Below, piece after piece: positions 1,282 through 11,301 of a stretch of DNA of 11,301 nt. The stretch is from assembly GCA_947372405.1 (NCBI GenBank), contig CANBTO010000112.1, positions 1-11,301 of the forward strand. Reading direction: 5' to 3'. The stretch is from Verrucomicrobiaceae bacterium (GTDB lineage: Bacteria; Verrucomicrobiota; Verrucomicrobiae; Verrucomicrobiales; Akkermansiaceae). The stretch's first letter is position 1; the number at the start of each line of letters is the position of its first letter. The notes under the pieces were generated by a model, which was not told the DNA's origin, ran no database searches, and worked only from the letters and a program-made list of their open reading frames with translations. Position numbers and translations under genes: made by a program.

Positions 1282-3348
1282 TCAACCGTCGGCAATGATC
1301 CGCGCCGTCTTCCTCCCGCGCCTGCGCGCCACCGGCACGACAAGCTGAAGGCGCGTGCCATTCCCGGGCTGGCTTTCGACGATGAGTTCCGCTCCCAGCG
1401 CTTCGGTCCGTTGACGCAGGGCGCGTAGCGTGGCGGGACGTTCAAGGCGCTGGGGATCGATGCCGACACCGTCGTCATGAATCACGAGATGGAAGCAGCC
1501 GTCGCTTTTTTCGACCCGGATCGCGACATTCGTGGCCTTGGCGTGGCGCATGATGTTGTGCAGCGCCTCGCGGAAGAAGAGAAAGAGATGTCGGGTTTCC
1601 TCCTCGGGCAGTTCGACCTGCCAGGCGGCCTCGTTTGCGGTGAACTTCCAGTCCAGCGTTTCCAACATGATGGAGCTGGTCTCGCGCAGATGCTCCACCG
1701 TCGCGATGCGGTGGTCACCCTCCGGACGCAACAGCCAGACGATGTCCCTAACAGCGCTGACCGTCTCCGCCGCGATGCGCTGGATGCGCTTGAGCTCGTC
1801 AGAGGGACCGGCGCGGCCTTCCGCCAGATCGGCAAACATCTGGATGCTGCCCAGGTTGCTGCCGACCTCGTCGTGCAGGTCACCCGCGATGCGTTCGCGC
1901 ACCTTGAGCAGCTCGCGGTTGGCATGGATGCGGTAGCGGATCGGCAGGGCGATGATCAGGAAAACCCCGGTCAGGACCAGCAGCGTCACACCTGTTAGAG
2001 CGGCGCGGTGCCAGCCGCCCACCAGCCGTTCGGCCTCCTCGCTGAGTTGGTGCTGGTGGGTTTCGATGCCCAGCCGCTGGTCCAGCCGGGTGAGCCAGTC
2101 ACGCGTGGAAACGAGGCGTCCGTCCGGCCCGAAACCGTCGCACAGCGCCGCGCCGCTCCAATACCGCCCGCCCGGGGCGATGAGGTTGAGCATGCCGTCG
2201 GACGAACGTACGGCCTTGCCCAGCGCCAGGTTGTTGTCACCTGCTAGAACCTCCACCTCGCTCAGCGCAAAAAACGCGGGGTAGCCCTCGAAGGCCTTCC
2301 AAAGCTCCGTCGCCTCGATCCGGACGAAGCGCCCACTGACTGGAGCGAATACGAGCTCCACCGGATTGTGGCCGGGATTTCGCAGTTCCAACCGGGCGAC
2401 TTCCGACCACGAGCCCTTCTCACCCGCTTCGCCAGTTTCCGAGACATCCACTCTGATTTTTCTCGGAAAACCGAAACCACTCGGCAGATCGGACGTCGGC
2501 CGTTTGGCAGGCAGCAGCCGGACCGCGTCCACTGTCGAGGACTGGCCGAGATCGACGGTTAGGGACGACGGCGAGGTTGCGTCCGCCTTGCCCTCGGACA
2601 TCCAGCCGATGTTGCCATGCGCTTCGGCAGGCACTTCCGGCAATCCGAGCGGCGTTTGCCCGTCCACCAGAAACGCGGGGTTCCAATGCCACGGCGCGGG
2701 CGGAGTGGACCCGCCAAGGCTGTGGACCTCCCCTCCCTTCGCGACATCACGCACCCCTTCGAAAACGAAGGCCTCCGCCCAGGCATGAACGAAGGTCCCA
2801 TTGCCGTCGGAATCCTCATGCAGATGGTCCGCGGAGATTCTCAGCCCCGCGGCCTCGACCGGCGGAGAAACCTGATAGACGAACGGATGGCCTCGCCTGA
2901 CCGGATGCGAGCGGGCCTTGTGTTCCTCACCCACCACGCCCACCACCGCGCCCGCGGCATCGATCAGCTCCACCTTGAAGTCGTCCGGCATTCCGTATTG
3001 CGCGTCCAAGCCCTTTGCGTCGTAACGCCTCGCAGGCACCAGTGCCACCATGTCCACCTTGGCCGGTGACTTCCACCGGACCTCCACCGCGCATGGGGAT
3101 TTGCCGGCGGGCGAGGCGTTGGAATACATGCCCGCATATCCGCCCGTGCCACCCTGGTCATCGATTGGGATTTTCGGAAGCGGCTCAAGCTGCGGTCCTA
3201 ACAAGTCGAGTTCCCGGTCGATCTCCCGCAGCCTCGTGGAAAACGCGCCCGCCAGCCGGACATCCCAGCCCGTGTCGACGGCACGGCCGGTTTCTCCTAA
3301 CAAAAAGAAAACGGCGAACATGCGTGAGATTCCGACGATGGTTTTCAT
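1282..3348 (-). CDS. Membrane sensor histidine kinase (NarL/HisKA_3 class) with periplasmic discoidin-like domains
   Basis: This 688-residue sensor kinase begins with a weak signal-like segment (1-23). Two tandem beta-rich regions resembling F5/8-type C (discoidin) domains follow at about 85-200 and 255-370; the second ends with GRFVRIEATEL. A third, partial one seems to begin at NLALGKAVRSSD (373-384). A transmembrane helix spans about 451-470. The cytoplasmic part has the HisKA_3 H-box RERIAGDLHDEVGSNLG with phospho-acceptor H492. The HATPase_c part has the N-box EALHNIMRHA (594-603), the G1 box DDGVGI (625-630) and a GNGT glycine motif (662-665). HisKA_3 kinases normally phosphorylate LuxR/NarL-type regulators, but none is encoded nearby. 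Discoidin-like domains often bind carbohydrate, so a glycan or cell-surface signal is plausible but unproven. It lies 18 bp downstream of the cupin gene and converges on the methyltransferase gene. Confidence 0.88.
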   Translation of the reverse strand: MKTIVGISRMFAVFFLLGETGRAVDTGWDVRLAGAFSTRLREIDRELDLLGPQLEPLPKIPIDDQGGTGGYAGMYSNASPAGKSPCAVEVRWKSPAKVDMVALVPARRYDAKGLDAQYGMPDDFKVELIDAAGAVVGVVGEEHKARSHPVRRGHPFVYQVSPPVEAAGLRISADHLHEDSDGNGTFVHAWAEAFVFEGVRDVAKGGEVHSLGGSTPPAPWHWNPAFLVDGQTPLGLPEVPAEAHGNIGWMSEGKADATSPSSLTVDLGQSSTVDAVRLLPAKRPTSDLPSGFGFPRKIRVDVSETGEAGEKGSWSEVARLELRNPGHNPVELVFAPVSGRFVRIEATELWKAFEGYPAFFALSEVEVLAGDNNLALGKAVRSSDGMLNLIAPGGRYWSGAALCDGFGPDGRLVSTRDWLTRLDQRLGIETHQHQLSEEAERLVGGWHRAALTGVTLLVLTGVFLIIALPIRYRIHANRELLKVRERIAGDLHDEVGSNLGSIQMFADLAEGRAGPSDELKRIQRIAAETVSAVRDIVWLLRPEGDHRIATVEHLRETSSIMLETLDWKFTANEAAWQVELPEEETRHLFLFFREALHNIMRHAKATNVAIRVEKSDGCFHLVIHDDGVGIDPQRLERPATLRALRQRTEALGAELIVESQPGNGTRLQLVVPVARRRGRKTARIIADG

Positions 3349-5093: not shown

Positions 5094-5136
5094 TTTTTCC
5101 CGGGGTTTGCCACATCATGTTGCCAATCCCTCCGCC

Positions 5137-6582
5137 ATGTCCCCCCTCCCCCGAACCGCCTTCGCCCTGCTGCTTTTCACAGCCGCGCACGCCCTCGCCG
5201 CAAAACCGCCGCCACCTTTCGGTGCGGTGCCCCACGAGAGGCAGCTCGCATGGCAGCGCATGGAATACTATGGCTTCGTCCACTTCGGGCTGAACACCTA
5301 CACCGGCCGCGCATGGGGCTATGGCAACGAGAGCGAGAGGCTTTTCAACCCCACGTCGTTCGACGCGCGGGCGATCGTCCGCCACTTCAAGGACGCGGGG
5401 ATGAAGGGCATGATCCTGACGGCGAAACACCACGACGGCTTCTGCCTGTGGCCCACCAAGACCACCACACATGACATCTCCAAAAGCCCGTGGAAGAACG
5501 GCACCGGAGATATGCTGAAAGAGTTCTCCGAAGCCTGCCGGGCGGAAGGCATGAAGTTAGGTATCTATGTTTCCCCGTGGGACCGCAACAACGCCGAATA
5601 CGCCCGGCCGGGTTATGTGAAAACCTTTCACGAACAAATCCGGGAAGTCATGTCAAACTACGGCCCGGTCTTCGAAGTCTGGTTCGATGGAGCGAACGGC
5701 GGCGATGGATACTATGGCGGCGCGAACGAGACCCGCACCATCACGGACGGCTACTATCAGTTTCCAATACTGGTGGAGATGATCCGCAAGCTCCAGCCGC
5801 AATGCGTGGCGTGGAGCGCGGGCGACGCGCGCTGGGGCGGCTCGGAACAGGGTTTCGTGAAATACCCGCAGTGGGACACCATGGATTCCGTTAGACCCGG
5901 AGACGTCGCCAGCGGCGTTCCCCACGGCGACCTGTGGGTGCCTGCGGAAGCCGATGTTTCGATCCGCCCCGGATGGTTCTGGCGCGCGCAGGAGGATACC
6001 GAAATCAAATCCCCGGAAACGCTGTTGGACATCTGGTTCAAGAGCGTGGGCCGCGGCGCGAACCTCATCCTCAACGTGCCGCCGGACCGCGATGGAAAAC
6101 TCCGTGACGGCGATGTGCGATCACTCACGGAATTCCGCAGTCTGCGCGACGGATTGCTTTCGAAAGACTTCGCCGCCGGCGCCCATGCCACCGGCCCGAC
6201 ACGTGGTGGAGACGGGCGTTTTTCACCCGCCAATCTAACGGACAGCGACATCGGGAGTTACTGGGCTCCTGACGATGGCACGGCCGCTCCGACCGCCGAG
6301 ATCTATCTGAAATCCGCGGCCACCTTCGACGTCATCCGCCTGCGCGAGCAGATCCGTTTGGGCCAGCGTGTGGACGCCTTCGGGGTCGACGCCTGGCTCG
6401 ACGGAGGATGGAAGGAGATCCACACCGGGAAAACCGTCGGCAACCAGGTTCTGGTGCGGCTTGCGAGCCCGGTCACCGCCGGACGGCTGCGCTTGCGCGT
6501 CACGCATTCAGCCGCCACGCCCTGCATCTCGGAGTTCTCACTCTACAAAATGCCGGCCTTGCACGGGCTCCCTGCGGACTGA
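5137..6582 (+). CDS. Secreted alpha-L-fucosidase, GH29, with C-terminal discoidin-like domain
   Basis: This 481-residue glycosidase should remove alpha-linked L-fucose from glycans outside the cytoplasm. Starting at 5137 gives a clean signal peptide (MSPLPRTAFALLLFTAAHALA, cleavage near residue 21 or 22), preferred over the in-frame ATG at 5107. GH29 marks include GFVHFGLNT (46-54), LTAKHHDGF (94-102) and YVSPWDRNN (144-152). D184 in VWFDGANG (181-188) is the expected nucleophile. E237 in GGSEQG sits where GH29-B (alpha-1,3/1,4-type) enzymes place the acid/base, and EADVSIRPGWFW (271-282) also suggests that subfamily. Residues from about 360 to 470 form a discoidin-like carbohydrate-binding module. 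It starts 43 bp after aroB on the same strand. No fucose catabolism genes are seen. The subfamily is inferred. Confidence 0.9.
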   Translation: MSPLPRTAFALLLFTAAHALAAKPPPPFGAVPHERQLAWQRMEYYGFVHFGLNTYTGRAWGYGNESERLFNPTSFDARAIVRHFKDAGMKGMILTAKHHDGFCLWPTKTTTHDISKSPWKNGTGDMLKEFSEACRAEGMKLGIYVSPWDRNNAEYARPGYVKTFHEQIREVMSNYGPVFEVWFDGANGGDGYYGGANETRTITDGYYQFPILVEMIRKLQPQCVAWSAGDARWGGSEQGFVKYPQWDTMDSVRPGDVASGVPHGDLWVPAEADVSIRPGWFWRAQEDTEIKSPETLLDIWFKSVGRGANLILNVPPDRDGKLRDGDVRSLTEFRSLRDGLLSKDFAAGAHATGPTRGGDGRFSPANLTDSDIGSYWAPDDGTAAPTAEIYLKSAATFDVIRLREQIRLGQRVDAFGVDAWLDGGWKEIHTGKTVGNQVLVRLASPVTAGRLRLRVTHSAATPCISEFSLYKMPALHGLPAD

Positions 6583-6694: not shown

Positions 6695-8842
6695 ATGTCC
6701 TCATCCTCCACCCATTTCCTGCACAAAGACCGCATCCCAACCACCGGCGTGCTGGTCATCCCCGGCCGCCTGAGTTTCGAACAGCTTCTCCACCTCGAAC
6801 GCCTGTTCGCAGGGAGGAAAATCACCTGGCTCATCGAGGAAAGTTCGCATCATGATCCCATGTTGCGCGGCCACCTCGAACGGTCCGGTTCCGGAGCCAT
6901 GTTCTCCGCCGCGGACGCCGCGCCCGCGGACGCCGGTGCCCAGCTTCAGCCCTACCTCGCCAACGGCGGTGTGCTCATCTATGTGCCGGGCCGTACGACC
7001 GCACGCAACGCCTCGTCCTGCCACATCCCCTCGTCCCACCTGCGTGCGCTTTGCGCCTTCAAACTGCCGCTCTTGGTGGTTGCCATCGACTGCCCGCGCG
7101 AGTCCTGCCTCTCCGTCGAACGCCGTTCCTCCCTGCCCCACTCGGTTTTCGCTGTTGCGAAACCGGTCCCCGCCGCCGATTCAAGCGTCGCCGCATTCCA
7201 TCAGGCGCTGTTAGAAGCAGCCGAAGAGGCTTACAGCTCGCGCGCCTTGTTCAAGGGCTCGCTCGCCATGGTGCTGTTGGAGGGGCTGAAGAAACACGGT
7301 TCACGAAACCGCATCTTCGACGGCGCCGATGACACCGAGCTGACCTATGACAAGATCCTGCCGGCGGCCATCGCGTTCTCCAAGTTCATCAAGCAGGAAA
7401 CCGACCAGCCGCGCGTCGCCATCGTGCTGCCTCCCGGGAAAGCCGGCCTCATCGCCAATCTCGCCGTCATCTTCGCCGGCAAGACCCCGGTGAACCTGAA
7501 CTTCACCGCCGGTCCCGAGGCCATCCGCTCGTGCATCCGCCAGTCCGGCGTGGACCGCTTCATCACCGCGGATCCGTTTGTTAGAAAAATCTCCTCCTTC
7601 CCATGGCCGCCTAACAGGGACCTCATCCTCATCGAGCGCGTCATGCCGCTGCTCAAGAAGAAGATCGTCACCTGGGCCGCTGTTTCGAAGGTCCTGCCTG
7701 CCGCCGTGCTTGGCGCCGTGCTGGGCCTGAACAAACGCCGCGGCAACGACGAGGCCACACTGCTCTTCACCTCCGGCTCCTCCGGCGAGCCCAAGGGCGT
7801 CGTGCTCAGCCACCGCAACATGCTGGCCAACGTCACCCAGTTCGCCTCGCGCCTCGACCTGCCGGACGGCTCCGCCATTCTCGGCTGCCTGCCGCTTTTC
7901 CACTCGTTCGGCTGCACCGTCACGCTCTGGTTCCCCGTCATCGAGGGCGTGAACCTCGTCACCTATCCCAGCCCGCTTGAAACCAAGCGCCTCGCGGAAC
8001 TCATCGCCCTCCATCAGATCAACGTCTTCCTTTCCACCCCCACATTCCTCCGGGGTTACATGAAGCGCATCGACCCCGCGCAGCTTTCCTCGTTAAAACT
8101 CGTAGTCACCGGCGCGGAGAAACTGCCGCAATCCCTCGCCAACGCCTTCGAGGAGAAATTCGGCGTCCGCCCGCAGGAAGGCTACGGCCTGACGGAAACC
8201 TCGCCCGCCTCCAACGTCAACCTGCCGGACCCCGAACCGGAGAAGGACGCCGTCACTCTGCCATGCTCGCGCAACGGCTCCGTCGGTCAGATGCTGCCCG
8301 GCCTCGCCATCCGCATCACTGATCCCGCCACCGAACAACCGATCCCCATCAACAAACAGGGCATCATCTGGTTCAAGGGCTCCAACGTTTTTCCGGGCTA
8401 TCTCGGCGATCCGAAGAAAACCGCCGATGTCCTCAAGGACGGCTGGTTCCGCACCGGTGATGTCGGCCGTGTGGATGACGACGGCTTCCTCTACATCGAA
8501 GGCCGAATTTCACGCTTCTCCAAGATCGCGGGTGAAATGGTTCCCCACGAAACCGTGGAGGCCGCCATCAACAAGGTCCTCGGCCTCGATGGCGAGACCG
8601 AGCGCCGCATCGCCGTCGTCGGCGTGCCGGACGAACAGAAAGGCGAGGCCATCCTCCTGCTCTCCACCATCGCCGGACCCGCCCTCGAACAGGAATGCAT
8701 CGACCTCCGCTACAAGTTGTTGGATGAGGGGTTGTCCTCCCTCTGGTGCCCGAAACAGATCGTCCCCGTCAACGAGATCCCCGTCCTCGCCTCCGGCAAA
8801 CTCGACATCAAGGCCTGCGAAGCCCTCGTCAAACGGGGTTAA
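6695..8842 (+). CDS. Aas-like acyl-ACP synthetase (AMP-binding) with degenerate N-terminal PlsC-type domain
   Basis: This 715-residue protein is probably membrane-associated. Residues from about 200 to 715 form an ANL adenylating enzyme. The P-loop is FTSGSSGEPKGV (358-369), the acidic motif is EGYGLTETSP (495-504), and GWFRTGD (583-589) follows. GRISRFSKIAGEMV is at 603-616 and the catalytic lysine is K702 in SGKLD. The order and wording match the synthetase half of E. coli Aas, which activates fatty acids onto ACP to re-acylate lysophospholipid. Residues 13-180 align with the PlsC acyltransferase half of Aas. However, the catalytic NHxxxxD is replaced by GRLSFEQ (24-30), and the substrate-binding PEGR by VPGR (97-100). 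Aas's MFS domain is absent. The frame is open from 6368, but that stretch overlaps the fucosidase. The ATG at 6695 starts the recognisable protein. Acyltransferase activity is unlikely; ligase activity is well supported. Confidence 0.88.
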   Translation: MSSSSTHFLHKDRIPTTGVLVIPGRLSFEQLLHLERLFAGRKITWLIEESSHHDPMLRGHLERSGSGAMFSAADAAPADAGAQLQPYLANGGVLIYVPGRTTARNASSCHIPSSHLRALCAFKLPLLVVAIDCPRESCLSVERRSSLPHSVFAVAKPVPAADSSVAAFHQALLEAAEEAYSSRALFKGSLAMVLLEGLKKHGSRNRIFDGADDTELTYDKILPAAIAFSKFIKQETDQPRVAIVLPPGKAGLIANLAVIFAGKTPVNLNFTAGPEAIRSCIRQSGVDRFITADPFVRKISSFPWPPNRDLILIERVMPLLKKKIVTWAAVSKVLPAAVLGAVLGLNKRRGNDEATLLFTSGSSGEPKGVVLSHRNMLANVTQFASRLDLPDGSAILGCLPLFHSFGCTVTLWFPVIEGVNLVTYPSPLETKRLAELIALHQINVFLSTPTFLRGYMKRIDPAQLSSLKLVVTGAEKLPQSLANAFEEKFGVRPQEGYGLTETSPASNVNLPDPEPEKDAVTLPCSRNGSVGQMLPGLAIRITDPATEQPIPINKQGIIWFKGSNVFPGYLGDPKKTADVLKDGWFRTGDVGRVDDDGFLYIEGRISRFSKIAGEMVPHETVEAAINKVLGLDGETERRIAVVGVPDEQKGEAILLLSTIAGPALEQECIDLRYKLLDEGLSSLWCPKQIVPVNEIPVLASGKLDIKACEALVKRG

Positions 8843-8863
8843 GCATCTTGTTTATCTTCCACT

Positions 8864-8884
8864 GATCACTGCTCACCGATCACT
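8864..8884 (+). repeat. Imperfect 14-bp direct repeat (GATCACT core) upstream of trpA
   Basis: GATCACT occurs at 8864-8870 and again at 8878-8884, exactly 14 bp apart. The intervening CTCACC and the following TCCACT keep partial similarity. It sits in the 57-bp gap between the acyl-ACP synthetase stop and the trpA start. It could be a regulator half-site pair or a decayed tandem repeat; nothing else supports a function. Confidence 0.35.
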
Positions 8885-8899
8885 TTCCACTTCTTTACC

Positions 8900-9694
8900 A
8901 TGCCCGACCGTCTCTCCACCACTTTCCAGAAACTTCGCGAGGCTAACAAAAAGGCGTTCGTCGCCTACATCGCCGCCGGTGATCCGGATTTCGACAAATC
9001 CCTGGAAATCATGAAAACCCTCGCCGACCTCGGCGCGGACATCATCGAGCTCGGACTGCCGTTCTCCGATCCGCTCGCCGACGGCATCGTCAACCAGATG
9101 GCCGCCGACCGCGCGCTCAGGTCCGGCATGACCACGCATCATGTGCTGGACCTCATCCGCGATTTCCGCAAAACGCATGAAACACCCATCGTACTCTTCA
9201 CCTATCTCAACCCGGTCTTCACCTATGGCTTCGAAGCCTTCCATCACGACGCCGCGGCCGCCGGCGCCGATGGCATCCTTTTGTTAGACCTGCCGCCGGA
9301 CGAGGCCGCGCTCAACACCGACCTCGCCGTGGGTGCGGGACTCAAGCACATCCGCCTCATCGCCCCCACCACTCCGCCGGAGCGCGTGAAGTTGCTGGCG
9401 CAATCGTCGGAAGGTTTCATCTATGCGCTCTCCCGCACCGGCGTCACGGGGGCCCACGGCGCGCCATCCGCAAACATCGCGGAACTCGTTGCCTCCATCA
9501 AAGCCCACACCGACGTACCGGTCTGCGTCGGCTTCGGCATCAGCACCCCCGAACAGGCCGCCATGGTCGCCGCAGCCGCCGACGGAGTCATCGTCGGCTC
9601 CGCCATCGTCAAGCAGGTGGAACTGAACCAGGACAACCCCGCTAAAGCCGTCAGGGATTTCACCGCGCCGCTCATCGCCGCCACCAAAAAGTAG
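8900..9694 (+). CDS. trpA: Tryptophan synthase alpha subunit
   Basis: TrpA cleaves indole-3-glycerol phosphate to indole and glyceraldehyde-3-phosphate, passing indole to TrpB in the cytoplasmic alpha2-beta2 complex. The 264-residue product has the normal family length and a TIM-barrel pattern. The catalytic pair is present: E50 in IELGLPFSDPLADG (49-62) and D61. The loop-6 segment SRTGVTGA (178-185) and the phosphate-binding GFGIS (211-215) and VGSAIV (232-237) are recognisable. The signature after ADG reads IVNQ rather than the usual PVIQ/PTIQ. The ATG at 8900 gives the typical start MPDRLSTTFQKLRE. trpB is not adjacent, unlike in many bacteria. A strong terminator follows immediately, so this is the last gene of the plus-strand run from aroB. 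Confidence 0.95.
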   Translation: MPDRLSTTFQKLREANKKAFVAYIAAGDPDFDKSLEIMKTLADLGADIIELGLPFSDPLADGIVNQMAADRALRSGMTTHHVLDLIRDFRKTHETPIVLFTYLNPVFTYGFEAFHHDAAAAGADGILLLDLPPDEAALNTDLAVGAGLKHIRLIAPTTPPERVKLLAQSSEGFIYALSRTGVTGAHGAPSANIAELVASIKAHTDVPVCVGFGISTPEQAAMVAAAADGVIVGSAIVKQVELNQDNPAKAVRDFTAPLIAATKK

Positions 9695-9696
9695 TC

Positions 9697-9720
9697 ACGG
9701 ACTTCAGTCCGTTTCTTTTT
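9697..9720 (+). terminator. Rho-independent terminator after trpA
   Basis: ACGGAC-TTCA-GTCCGT forms a perfect 6-bp stem with a tetraloop; the T-A pair inside the loop could lengthen it to 7 bp. It is followed at once by the T-rich run TTCTTTTT. It starts 2 bp after the trpA stop and 38 bp before the first GspG-like gene, so it separates the two transcription units. Confidence 0.8.
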
Positions 9721-9734
9721 CACATCTATCACCC

Positions 9735-10316
9735 ATGAATAAGAAGCCGGGCATGGATGGCAAGCATGAGTCACGACGCTTCAGCATTGCAAATGTTGCG
9801 ATTGGAACCGTCTTGGGACTCACCATTCCGGCAGTCTATATGTTTACGGCGGGCCATGTTGACCCGCGTCCCAACCGCAGCAAATACGCCCTCGCCACCG
9901 CCATCGCAATCGAAAGCGCTGTAATCAATTTTCAAACCGAATACGGAGCCCTCCCTGACGCCGCCAGTCATGTCACCACCGACTCCTCAGAAGGCATCAA
10001 CCTCCTGTCCATCCTGCTGGGTCTGGAACCCCAGATCCAAAAACCCCAAAACACCCGCGGCATCAAGCTTCTGTATGTAAAGGAAGGCAAAGACCGCAAA
10101 AACGGCCTGATCTATTCCGAGTCCGGAACCTCAATCGAAGGTCTCTTCGATCCGTGGGGAAACCCCTACACCATCGAACTCGACACCCAAAACGCAGGCC
10201 ACCTTCATTTCACCATCGGCAACAAGACCATCGAACTCAAGAACCGCCGCGTCGCAGCCTATTCCCCTGGGCCGGATGGAAAACTTGGAACCAAAGACGA
10301 CGTCATTACTTGGTGA
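9735..10316 (+). CDS. GspG-like membrane-anchored protein, array copy 1
   Basis: This 193-residue protein has a short polar N-terminus with SRRFSIANV (13-21), a single hydrophobic segment (about 19-40), and a periplasmic part resembling the type II secretion major pseudopilin GspG. That part contains the helix AIAIESAVINFQTEYG (56-71), DPWGNPYTIELD (139-150) and a C-terminal YSPGPDGKLGTKDDV (176-190), where pseudopilins bind calcium. Unlike real pseudopilins, it lacks the G|FTLIE prepilin-peptidase site: Arg replaces Gly before the Phe, and Asn replaces the Glu at position 5. It is therefore probably a plain N-in membrane-anchored protein. It follows the trpA terminator and needs its own promoter, which I cannot identify in the 38-bp gap. 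The function is unknown. Confidence 0.85.
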   Translation: MNKKPGMDGKHESRRFSIANVAIGTVLGLTIPAVYMFTAGHVDPRPNRSKYALATAIAIESAVINFQTEYGALPDAASHVTTDSSEGINLLSILLGLEPQIQKPQNTRGIKLLYVKEGKDRKNGLIYSESGTSIEGLFDPWGNPYTIELDTQNAGHLHFTIGNKTIELKNRRVAAYSPGPDGKLGTKDDVITW

Positions 10317-10392
10317 ACAGCCCTTATGATTCAAAGCATCCCGGGCATCATCCTTCCTTGAATTGCTTTCCCATACTGCTACGTCTTTCGTC
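10317..10392 (+). repeat. 76-bp inter-gene spacer, repeat copy A
   Basis: This spacer lies between the copy 1 stop and the copy 2 start. It matches the spacer at 10972-11047 in length and at 74 of 76 positions; the differences are at 10325 and in the TTT/TTG before GCGTC/TCGTC near the start codon. It contains CCCGGG and two inverted-repeat pairs, ATTCAA (10329-10334) with TTGAAT (10358-10363) and AAAGCA (10333-10338) with TGCTTT (10364-10369). It has no Shine-Dalgarno sequence and no terminator-like T tract. It may carry a promoter or a 5' leader for the following copy. Confidence 0.85.
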
Positions 10393-10971
10393 ATGAGTGA
10401 AACACCGGAAATGGATGGGCGGAAAAAGTCCCGGCGCTTCGACCTCGCGAATGTAGCAGCCGCAACCTTCCTGGGTCTTATCTTTCTGGCGTTCATTGCA
10501 TATTTTTTGGGACCAAGAAACATAGGCTGCCGCAGGACAACAGAGTCATCGACCGCCATCGCACTTGAATCCGCAGTCATCAATTTCCAAACCGAATTAG
10601 GAAACATCCCCGACGTTGGAGCCCACATAACAACCGACTCCCCGGAAGGCATTCAACTCCTGACCATTCTACTCGGAATGGAACCCCAGACCGGAAAAAT
10701 CCAAAACACCCGCGGCATCAAGTTCCTGAATGCAAGAGAAGGCAAGAACCGCAAGAACAGCCTGATTTACTCCAAATCCGGAACCTCAATCGAAGGTCTC
10801 TTCGATCGGTGGGGAAACCCCTACACCATCGAACTCGACACCCGGAACGCAGGCCACCTGCATTTCACCCTCGGCAACAGAACCATCGACCTCAAGAACC
10901 GCCGCGTCGCGGCCTATTCTCCTGGTCCGGATGGAAAACTTGGAACCGAAGATGACGTCCTCACTTGGTGA
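10393..10971 (+). CDS. GspG-like membrane-anchored protein, array copy 2
   Basis: This 192-residue paralogue of copy 1 starts at the ATG at 10393, matching the N-termini of the other copies (MSETPEMDG here, MNKKPGMDG in copy 1). An upstream in-frame ATG at 10363 lies inside the repeated spacer and is rejected. SRRFDLANV (13-21) leads into a hydrophobic helix (about 19-40), a basic variable stretch with C46, then the conserved helix ALESAVINFQTELG (57-70). FDRWGNPYTIELD (137-149) and YSPGPDGKLGTEDDV (175-189) close the protein. From NTRGIK (105-110) onward it is highly similar to copy 1. Like copy 1 it lacks a usable prepilin-peptidase site. It is presumably a membrane-anchored protein with its globular domain outside the cytoplasm; the role is unknown. 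Confidence 0.85.
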   Translation: MSETPEMDGRKKSRRFDLANVAAATFLGLIFLAFIAYFLGPRNIGCRRTTESSTAIALESAVINFQTELGNIPDVGAHITTDSPEGIQLLTILLGMEPQTGKIQNTRGIKFLNAREGKNRKNSLIYSKSGTSIEGLFDRWGNPYTIELDTRNAGHLHFTLGNRTIDLKNRRVAAYSPGPDGKLGTEDDVLTW

Positions 10972-11047
10972 ACAGCCCTGATGATTCAAAGCATCCCGGG
11001 CATCATCCTTCCTTGAATTGCTTTCCCATACTGCTACGTCTTGCGTC
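10972..11047 (+). repeat. 76-bp inter-gene spacer, repeat copy B
   Basis: This is the second copy of the array spacer, identical to 10317-10392 except at two positions. It lies between the copy 2 stop and the copy 3 start. Both inverted-repeat pairs are preserved. Confidence 0.85.
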
Positions 11048-11301
11048 ATGAGCGAAACACCGGTCATGGATGGCATGCAGAAGTCCCGGCGCTTCGACCT
11101 CGCGAATGTTGCAGCCGCAACCTTCCTGAGTCTTGTCATTCTGGGGGTCTTAATATTTGTGATGAGCCCCTCACCACCGCGCCACAGCAAAACTCTCACC
11201 ACCGCCACCGCCATTGAAAAGGGAGTCATCAACTTCCAAACCGAATACGGCGCCATGCCTGACGTCGCCAGTCATGTCACCACAGACTCCCCGGAAGGCA
11301 T
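11048..11301 (+). CDS. GspG-like membrane-anchored protein, array copy 3 (cut by window end)
   Basis: An open frame from the ATG at 11048 runs off the right edge after 84 codons. It begins MSETPVMDGMQKSRRFDLAN, nearly the same as copy 2, followed by a divergent hydrophobic helix (about 19-40), a proline-rich SPSPPRHSK stretch (40-48) and the helix AIEKGVINFQTEYG (55-68). The segment EYGAMPDVASHVTTDS (66-81) is closer to copy 1 than to copy 2, making this copy a mosaic. It has the same Arg-Arg-Phe-Asp start to the hydrophobic segment in place of a prepilin cleavage site. Its C-terminal half should resemble copies 1 and 2 but is outside the window. Confidence 0.8.
   Translation, partial: MSETPVMDGMQKSRRFDLANVAAATFLSLVILGVLIFVMSPSPPRHSKTLTTATAIEKGVINFQTEYGAMPDVASHVTTDSPEG

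Follow-up and report, generated by a model that had tools for sequence, protein, structure and literature searches.

The 11,301-nucleotide stretch of Verrucomicrobiaceae DNA analyzed here (the window; contig CANBTO010000112.1 of assembly GCA_947372405.1) ends in a tandem array of at least three consecutive paralogous genes on the + strand, as the first-pass annotation had recognized. Two of the genes are complete and the third is cut by the end of the window. Copy 1 (9735..10316) is an open reading frame of 193 amino acids (aa), and copy 2 (10393..10971) encodes 192 aa; copy 3 occupies 11048..11301. The copies follow each other with periods of 658 and 655 bases and are separated by two spacers of 76 nt (10317..10392 and 10972..11047). 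The full form of copy 3 is P0002, a protein of 190 residues on another contig (6156 bases), whose first 84 residues equal the visible part of copy 3. Identity to copy 1 is 68% for copy 2 (E 1.4e-77) and 72% for copy 3 (E 6.3e-82, measured on P0002). The annotation had assigned the core motifs of pseudopilins to all three proteins. This holds in part: copy 2 deviates, with ELGNIPD rather than YG.LPD and with DRWGNPY, and the DPWG segment and tail of copy 3 lie outside the window, P0002 having DPWGKPY and SAGPDGKLGTSDDV.

A structural model predicted for copy 1 contains a globular head of the type 4 pilin kind, built on an antiparallel beta sheet (residues 48-193; 9876..10313), with a predicted local distance difference test score (pLDDT) of 88. 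When this model was used as a query, chains of GspG, the major pseudopilin of type II secretion, occupied ranks 1-11 in Foldseek, with a best E value of only 0.02, and ranks 1-8 in VIA. Structure prediction thus bore out the GspG-type head that the annotation had proposed. Profile searches were less clear. Copy 1 matched Pfam T2SSG (PF08334; E 0.086, 13.4 bits versus a cut-off of 21) and NCBIfam GspG (TIGR01710; 16.9 bits versus a cut-off of 88.85) below the thresholds only, and copies 2 and 3 matched neither family. Residues D181, D188, and D189 of copy 1 align with the GPDG...DD motif of the GspG chains, at positions that we take to be the calcium ligands of GspG. With the standard family matches weak, the link to GspG is drawn from the copy 1 model, its Foldseek and VIA matches, and this aligned motif. 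According to a review (PMC10574481), secretion suffers when the calcium aspartates of GspG are changed.

We classed 134 of 144 related proteins by their start, leaving out 10 in which the start was missing, cut, or unclear. Classes were assigned by patterns, a hydropathy scan, and hand overrides, with no trained predictor, and the pilin (leader) class admits Ala as well as Gly at position -1. Locus matches below 70 bits, such as a copy at locus L136 and a piece at L056 7294-7494, were not classed. The 134 heads follow a prepilin leader in 80 cases, a single transmembrane (TM) segment in 31, a multi-TM anchor (often DUF4190) in 18, a lipoprotein signal in 4, and a Sec signal in 1; regions were taken preferentially from genomes with several matches, so these shares are not prevalences. 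D181 and D188 are kept in all 54 leaderless rows and in 75 and 73, respectively, of the 80 leader rows. D189 is kept in 46 of the 54 leaderless rows, the other 8 having Asn, and in 62 of the 80 leader rows.

The annotation had aligned R|F(D/S)(L/I)AN of the window proteins with the prepilin cleavage site G|FTLIE. This alignment is sound. Type 4 prepilins carry a class III signal peptide, with a Gly(-1) cleavage site and Glu5; the prepilin site is absent from all copies, and the N_methyl family matched none of the three at E ≤ 10. In the alignment of heads, F(+1) stands at a distance of 43 from a fixed head column in 79/79 leader-bearing rows that could be measured (P0039, the 80th, lacks its start). 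From the F of the window motif the same distance is 44 in copy 1, 43 in copy 2, and 41 in copy 3. The claim that Arg replaces Gly(-1) and Asn replaces Glu5 is accordingly exact for FDLAN of copy 2 (10438..10452), which is in register with FTLxE of the leader-bearing relatives, and approximate for the others, FSIAN of copy 1 (9780..9794) being one residue long and copy 3 two residues short. Stem length, invariant in the leader rows, varies among the window copies. Loss of the cleavage site is real, but it is narrower than the actual loss, since the entire stem differs. Among the 31 single-TM rows, none combines Gly or Ala at -1 with Glu5, and Gly occurs at -1 in 2. A review takes the leader as the defining feature of type 4 pilins (PMC10191384). 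The window proteins are GspG-like heads without the defining prepilin leader; by that definition they are not prepilins, though they share common descent with them.

Type 4 prepilins have a long continuous N-terminal stem helix, which the copy 1 model lacks. In this model a TM helix at residues 18-38 (9786..9848; pLDDT 56-67, also found by hydropathy) is separated from a second helix at residues 48-70 by a break of low pLDDT that contains two prolines (residues 39-47; 9849..9875). The model of leader-bearing P0033, made with the same 94 rows, has a single unbroken helix of 52 residues (14-65); the stem comparison consists of these two models. A linker proline is present in 25/31 single-TM rows versus 7/80 leader rows, and in 4/18 multi-TM, 1/4 lipoprotein, and 1/1 Sec rows. 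Hydropathy places the TM segments of copies 2 and 3 at residues 21-39 (10453..10509 and 11108..11164). The linker of copy 2 also contains a cysteine (10528-10530) that recurs in the single-TM members P0004, P0006, P0007, P0014, P0015, and P0020, where a disulfide-linked dimer is possible.

These features bear on whether the window proteins are unusual subunits that still enter a pseudopilus, for example as a cap that needs no Glu5. GspK-type tip caps have a cleavable prepilin leader without Glu5; copy 2 has neither Gly nor Ala at -1. Searching the 54 leaderless rows by pattern for hidden leaders returned 3 matches, none of them plausible. Together with the missing leader of the window copies, the predicted broken stem of copy 1, and the fact that lipoprotein, Sec, and multi-helix anchors could not provide a stem core, this makes a place in the filament very unlikely.

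The leaderless forms have several origins. A quick tree of the heads alone required a minimum of 15 changes of the leader label, 6 of them forced by starred branches, and of 24 changes among five states. A single clade of the 54 leaderless rows was rejected (lnL -541; approximately unbiased test, p-AU 2.9e-54), and a single clade of the 18 multi-TM rows was weakly rejected (p 0.0235). Pairs from the same genome with unlike starts are sisters at L051 (starred), L052 (support 80), L084/L085 (94), and L014/L017 (starred). At L136 5565-7276 (-), three tandem leaderless copies have unlike TM segments, one of them (55 bits) standing outside the tree. The DUF4190 anchor was found in 7 of 29 homologues scanned and additionally at L056 (two), L063, L065, and L138; DUF4190 (PF13828) had no match in the three window copies. 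The latter fall into a cluster of 25 rows (14 single-TM and 11 multi-TM) that contains no leader row and has a support of 83 on a short branch. The annotation had named homologues with a normal leader as evidence that would speak against it. They exist, as 80 of the 134 rows, but on branches other than that of the window copies, and they have the appearance of an ancestral form, not of counterevidence.

The unrooted tree gives no direction of change; priority of the leader form is suggested instead by two sequence junctions and by the gene order around RNase R. The gene at L138 1207-2043 (-) encodes GYF_2, DUF4190, and a GspG-like head. After DUF4190 its product reads AGFAAGNAAITMARKTT, as in leader-bearing rows, and P0031 has AGFTAGHSAIQKARKIT at the equivalent place. 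A gene for RNase R (identified at L121; RNB, E 3.7e-104) lies within 600 nt of 53/76 leader genes versus 2/25 leaderless genes read in the loci, and farther away, within 6 kb, of 4 more genes of each kind. No RNase R was found next to 15 leader and 13 leaderless genes with flanks of at least 1.4 kb on both sides, nor next to 4 leader and 6 leaderless genes with a shorter flank. At L050-L053, RNase R is flanked by leaderless copies that look like products of local duplication. One of them, L053 12547-13227 (-), reads SGLTLLVVAILL where leader rows have GFTLIELLVV, apparently a leader that lost Glu5 and its neighbors by decay in place.

The proximity of an orphan leader-bearing prepilin to RNase R (L049, L050, L051, L052, and others) is in itself a conserved association between a gene of pilus type and one for an RNA exonuclease. 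At L053, the leader-bearing copy and RNase R are separated by two genes (6923-8941 and 8978-9856) judged by eye to encode HtrA-type proteases. Long stop-to-stop frames (795-1146 aa) were considered as fusions and rejected at L057, L058, and L059, where the upstream part is antisense RNase R and the leader directly precedes the head; in the fourth long frame, L060, no RNase R was found upstream of the head.

The heads are under purifying selection. Nonsynonymous and synonymous rates (dN/dS) in the head were 0.137/0.437 for copies 1 and 2 (141 codons), 0.116/0.510 for copies 1 and 3, and 0.263/0.884 for copies 2 and 3 (35 codons each), giving ratios of 0.23-0.31. The corresponding anchor values were 0.453/1.54, 0.475/0.839, and 0.306/0.417, with ratios of 0.29, 0.57, and 0.73 (46-49 codons). 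Turnover is also apparent, in truncated copies (L049 9163-9498 and L055 3368-3709) and a remnant start (L051 5244-5606). We therefore considered whether the copies are decaying duplicates of an orphan prepilin with no present function. This visible birth and death, the anchor ratios of up to 0.73, and the low G+C content of the array (9735-11301; 53.5%, compared with 61.2% in the window and 63.1% in trpA) are in keeping with such decay. It is nonetheless quite improbable in view of the intact frames of copies 1 and 2, and it is opposed by the head ratios, the retention of D181 and D188 in every leaderless row, and the leaderless cluster of 25 rows. By the last three results, the earlier argument for a stable family rather than decay stands.

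Variation among the copies is concentrated near the N terminus. In DNA comparisons of units 1 and 2, identity was lowest in the TM/linker part (19/48) and reached 49/50 and 50/50 in windows toward the 3' end. The two spacers are identical at 74 of 76 positions, closer than the flanking genes, a similarity that gene conversion, or a regulatory role of the spacers, could explain. Copy 3 is a mosaic, resembling copy 2 before and copy 1 after alignment column 99, within the TM segment, with an inferred breakpoint near 11147 (79 informative sites, maximum chi2 16.9, permutation p 0.0009; with three sequences and ~250 bases, a modest test). Tandem arrays with variable starts and recombination between copies would suit surface-exposed modules, and the annotation had suggested a surface-anchored decoy, adhesin, or specificity role. 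However, with a single N-terminal TM helix arranged as in GspG, the head would be kept in the periplasm, at the inner membrane; the variation peaks in anchor and linker, and three proteins searched against PADLOC matched no defense family. Our analysis gave no evidence for any of these roles, and we regard surface exposure as highly doubtful.

The array lies downstream of trpA. Between them is a terminator-like hairpin (9697..9712, +), one of 4 found by pattern in the stretch versus 2.5 ± 1.7 expected, little above chance; a pattern search of 9600-11301 for promoters found none (0.8 expected). Pfam matches of the seven upstream window genes include no secretion family, in agreement with the annotation. 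Upstream, the gene at 1285-3348 (-) encodes a histidine kinase that contains an F5/8 type C domain, and a nearby alpha-L-fucosidase (5107-6579) likewise carries one.

Of the 40 relatives retrieved at E values up to 1, the window's own included, 39 fell below E 1e-25. A genome scan with copy 1 yielded seven loci, in Haloferula, Akkermansiaceae, Verrucomicrobiia, Verrucomicrobiales, Verrucomicrobiota, and Kiritimatiellae records, and a head profile at E 1e-5 matched in 5 of these 7 genomes. Around the Haloferula record, the head profile matched 148/195 genomes of the family at E 1e-15, copy 1 matched 84/386 genomes of the order at E 1e-15, and leaderless L137 matched 11/387 genomes of the phylum at E 1e-20. 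The head family looks centered on one bacterial family, in a comparison whose draws differ in query and cut-off.

If the heads were unconnected with secretion, they might be membrane-tethered, calcium-binding periplasmic sensors or scaffolds. The occurrence of the same head on five kinds of start, one of them with GYF_2 and DUF4190 in front, and the lack of a secretion family in the seven upstream genes are compatible with this idea, which we nevertheless consider unlikely. In 13 of the 17 genomes where a leaderless copy was read, the stretches read also contained a leader-bearing one (that of G006 has Ala at -1); none was seen in the read stretches of G130, G137, G306, and G407. In addition, all 10 genomes tested, those of chosen relatives, have pilus-platform genes, namely, the prepilin peptidase PF01478 (10/10, 9 over the cut-off) and T2SSF (10/10).

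On balance, we find it somewhat probable that the array encodes tandem GspG-type heads that have left the filament and serve as nonpolymerizing, membrane-tethered, static binding partners in the periplasm. The anatomy of these freed heads, comprising the predicted head fold, missing leader, predicted stem break, several origins, purifying selection, and mosaic copy 3, is well supported by computation; topology, nonpolymerization, and the binding role are what we infer. An orphan prepilin, often beside RNase R in this group, would have duplicated repeatedly. Many duplicates would have retained the head but lost the leader, which either decayed in place or went when the whole start was replaced by another anchor (a lipoprotein signal, a Sec signal, DUF4190, or another multi-helix anchor). 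The window copies would consist of one TM helix, a broken linker, and the head. Their likely route is decay in place, because copy 2 is still in register, with exchange the less probable one. Lacking a leader, the window proteins would not be cleaved by prepilin peptidase, and lacking Glu5 and an unbroken stem, they would not pack into a pseudopilus. They would remain anchored in the inner membrane and extend the head into the periplasm, where it may act as an adaptor, docking site, or brake by binding the target of the leader-bearing head. That target could be a client protein, a protein of the assembly platform, or the pseudopilus. Adjacent copies would swap anchor and head parts through recombination.

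More speculatively, the pilin head may be a reusable periplasmic binding module. A GspG head would have been freed on many separate occasions in this bacterial group and would have gained new anchors of at least four kinds, the tandem arrays being sites where anchors and heads are swapped, and each cell would possess a set of static partners that tune or load its pseudopili; this wider generalization is possible but doubtful. Repeated retention of the head with leader and stem given up would imply that the head is used outside the filament. The natural anchor swaps offer a ready-made experiment for finding the binding partner of the head, and one head is common to proteins that these genomes label PulG-like, DUF4190, or hypothetical. 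Literature searches, with most subscription papers outside their coverage, found nothing on leaderless heads by title or opening of the abstract among papers on pseudopilins in Verrucomicrobia, and nothing by title among those on lost or changed pseudopilin leaders, orphan prepilins, or pilins on other anchors. Searches with the same limited coverage for DUF4190, and for GspG with Verrucomicrobiota, found none.

Among known systems, GspG/PulG/EpsG, the type II secretion major pseudopilin (PF08334, TIGR01710), resembles the window proteins in the predicted head fold, the DPWG..Y segment, and the GPDG...DD..W tail. The window copies differ from it in having no prepilin leader, no Glu5, a predicted broken stem, no adjoining secretion genes in the window, and scores below the curated cut-offs. 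Orphan relatives that bear a leader, in many cases next to RNase R (e.g., L051 9815-10513 and P0033), belong to the same head family, with head identities to copy 1 of 50% for P0033, 48% for P0035, 47% for P0036, and 42% for L001; unlike the window copies, they carry GFTLxE, and the modeled stem of P0033 is one unbroken helix. DUF4190 membrane proteins provide the anchor of some relatives, whereas the window copies are without DUF4190. The mitochondrial GspG of some protists likewise combines a GspG head with an altered N-terminal targeting part; the paper on it (PMC8134430) reports that Glu at +5 is conserved and that peptides fit with processing, whereas the window copies are without the site. 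Modular type 4 pilins, in which adhesive domains are grafted onto a pilin, as described in a review (PMC10191384), share domain cut-and-paste with the proteins studied here; in the latter the head is kept and the stem replaced, the reverse exchange.
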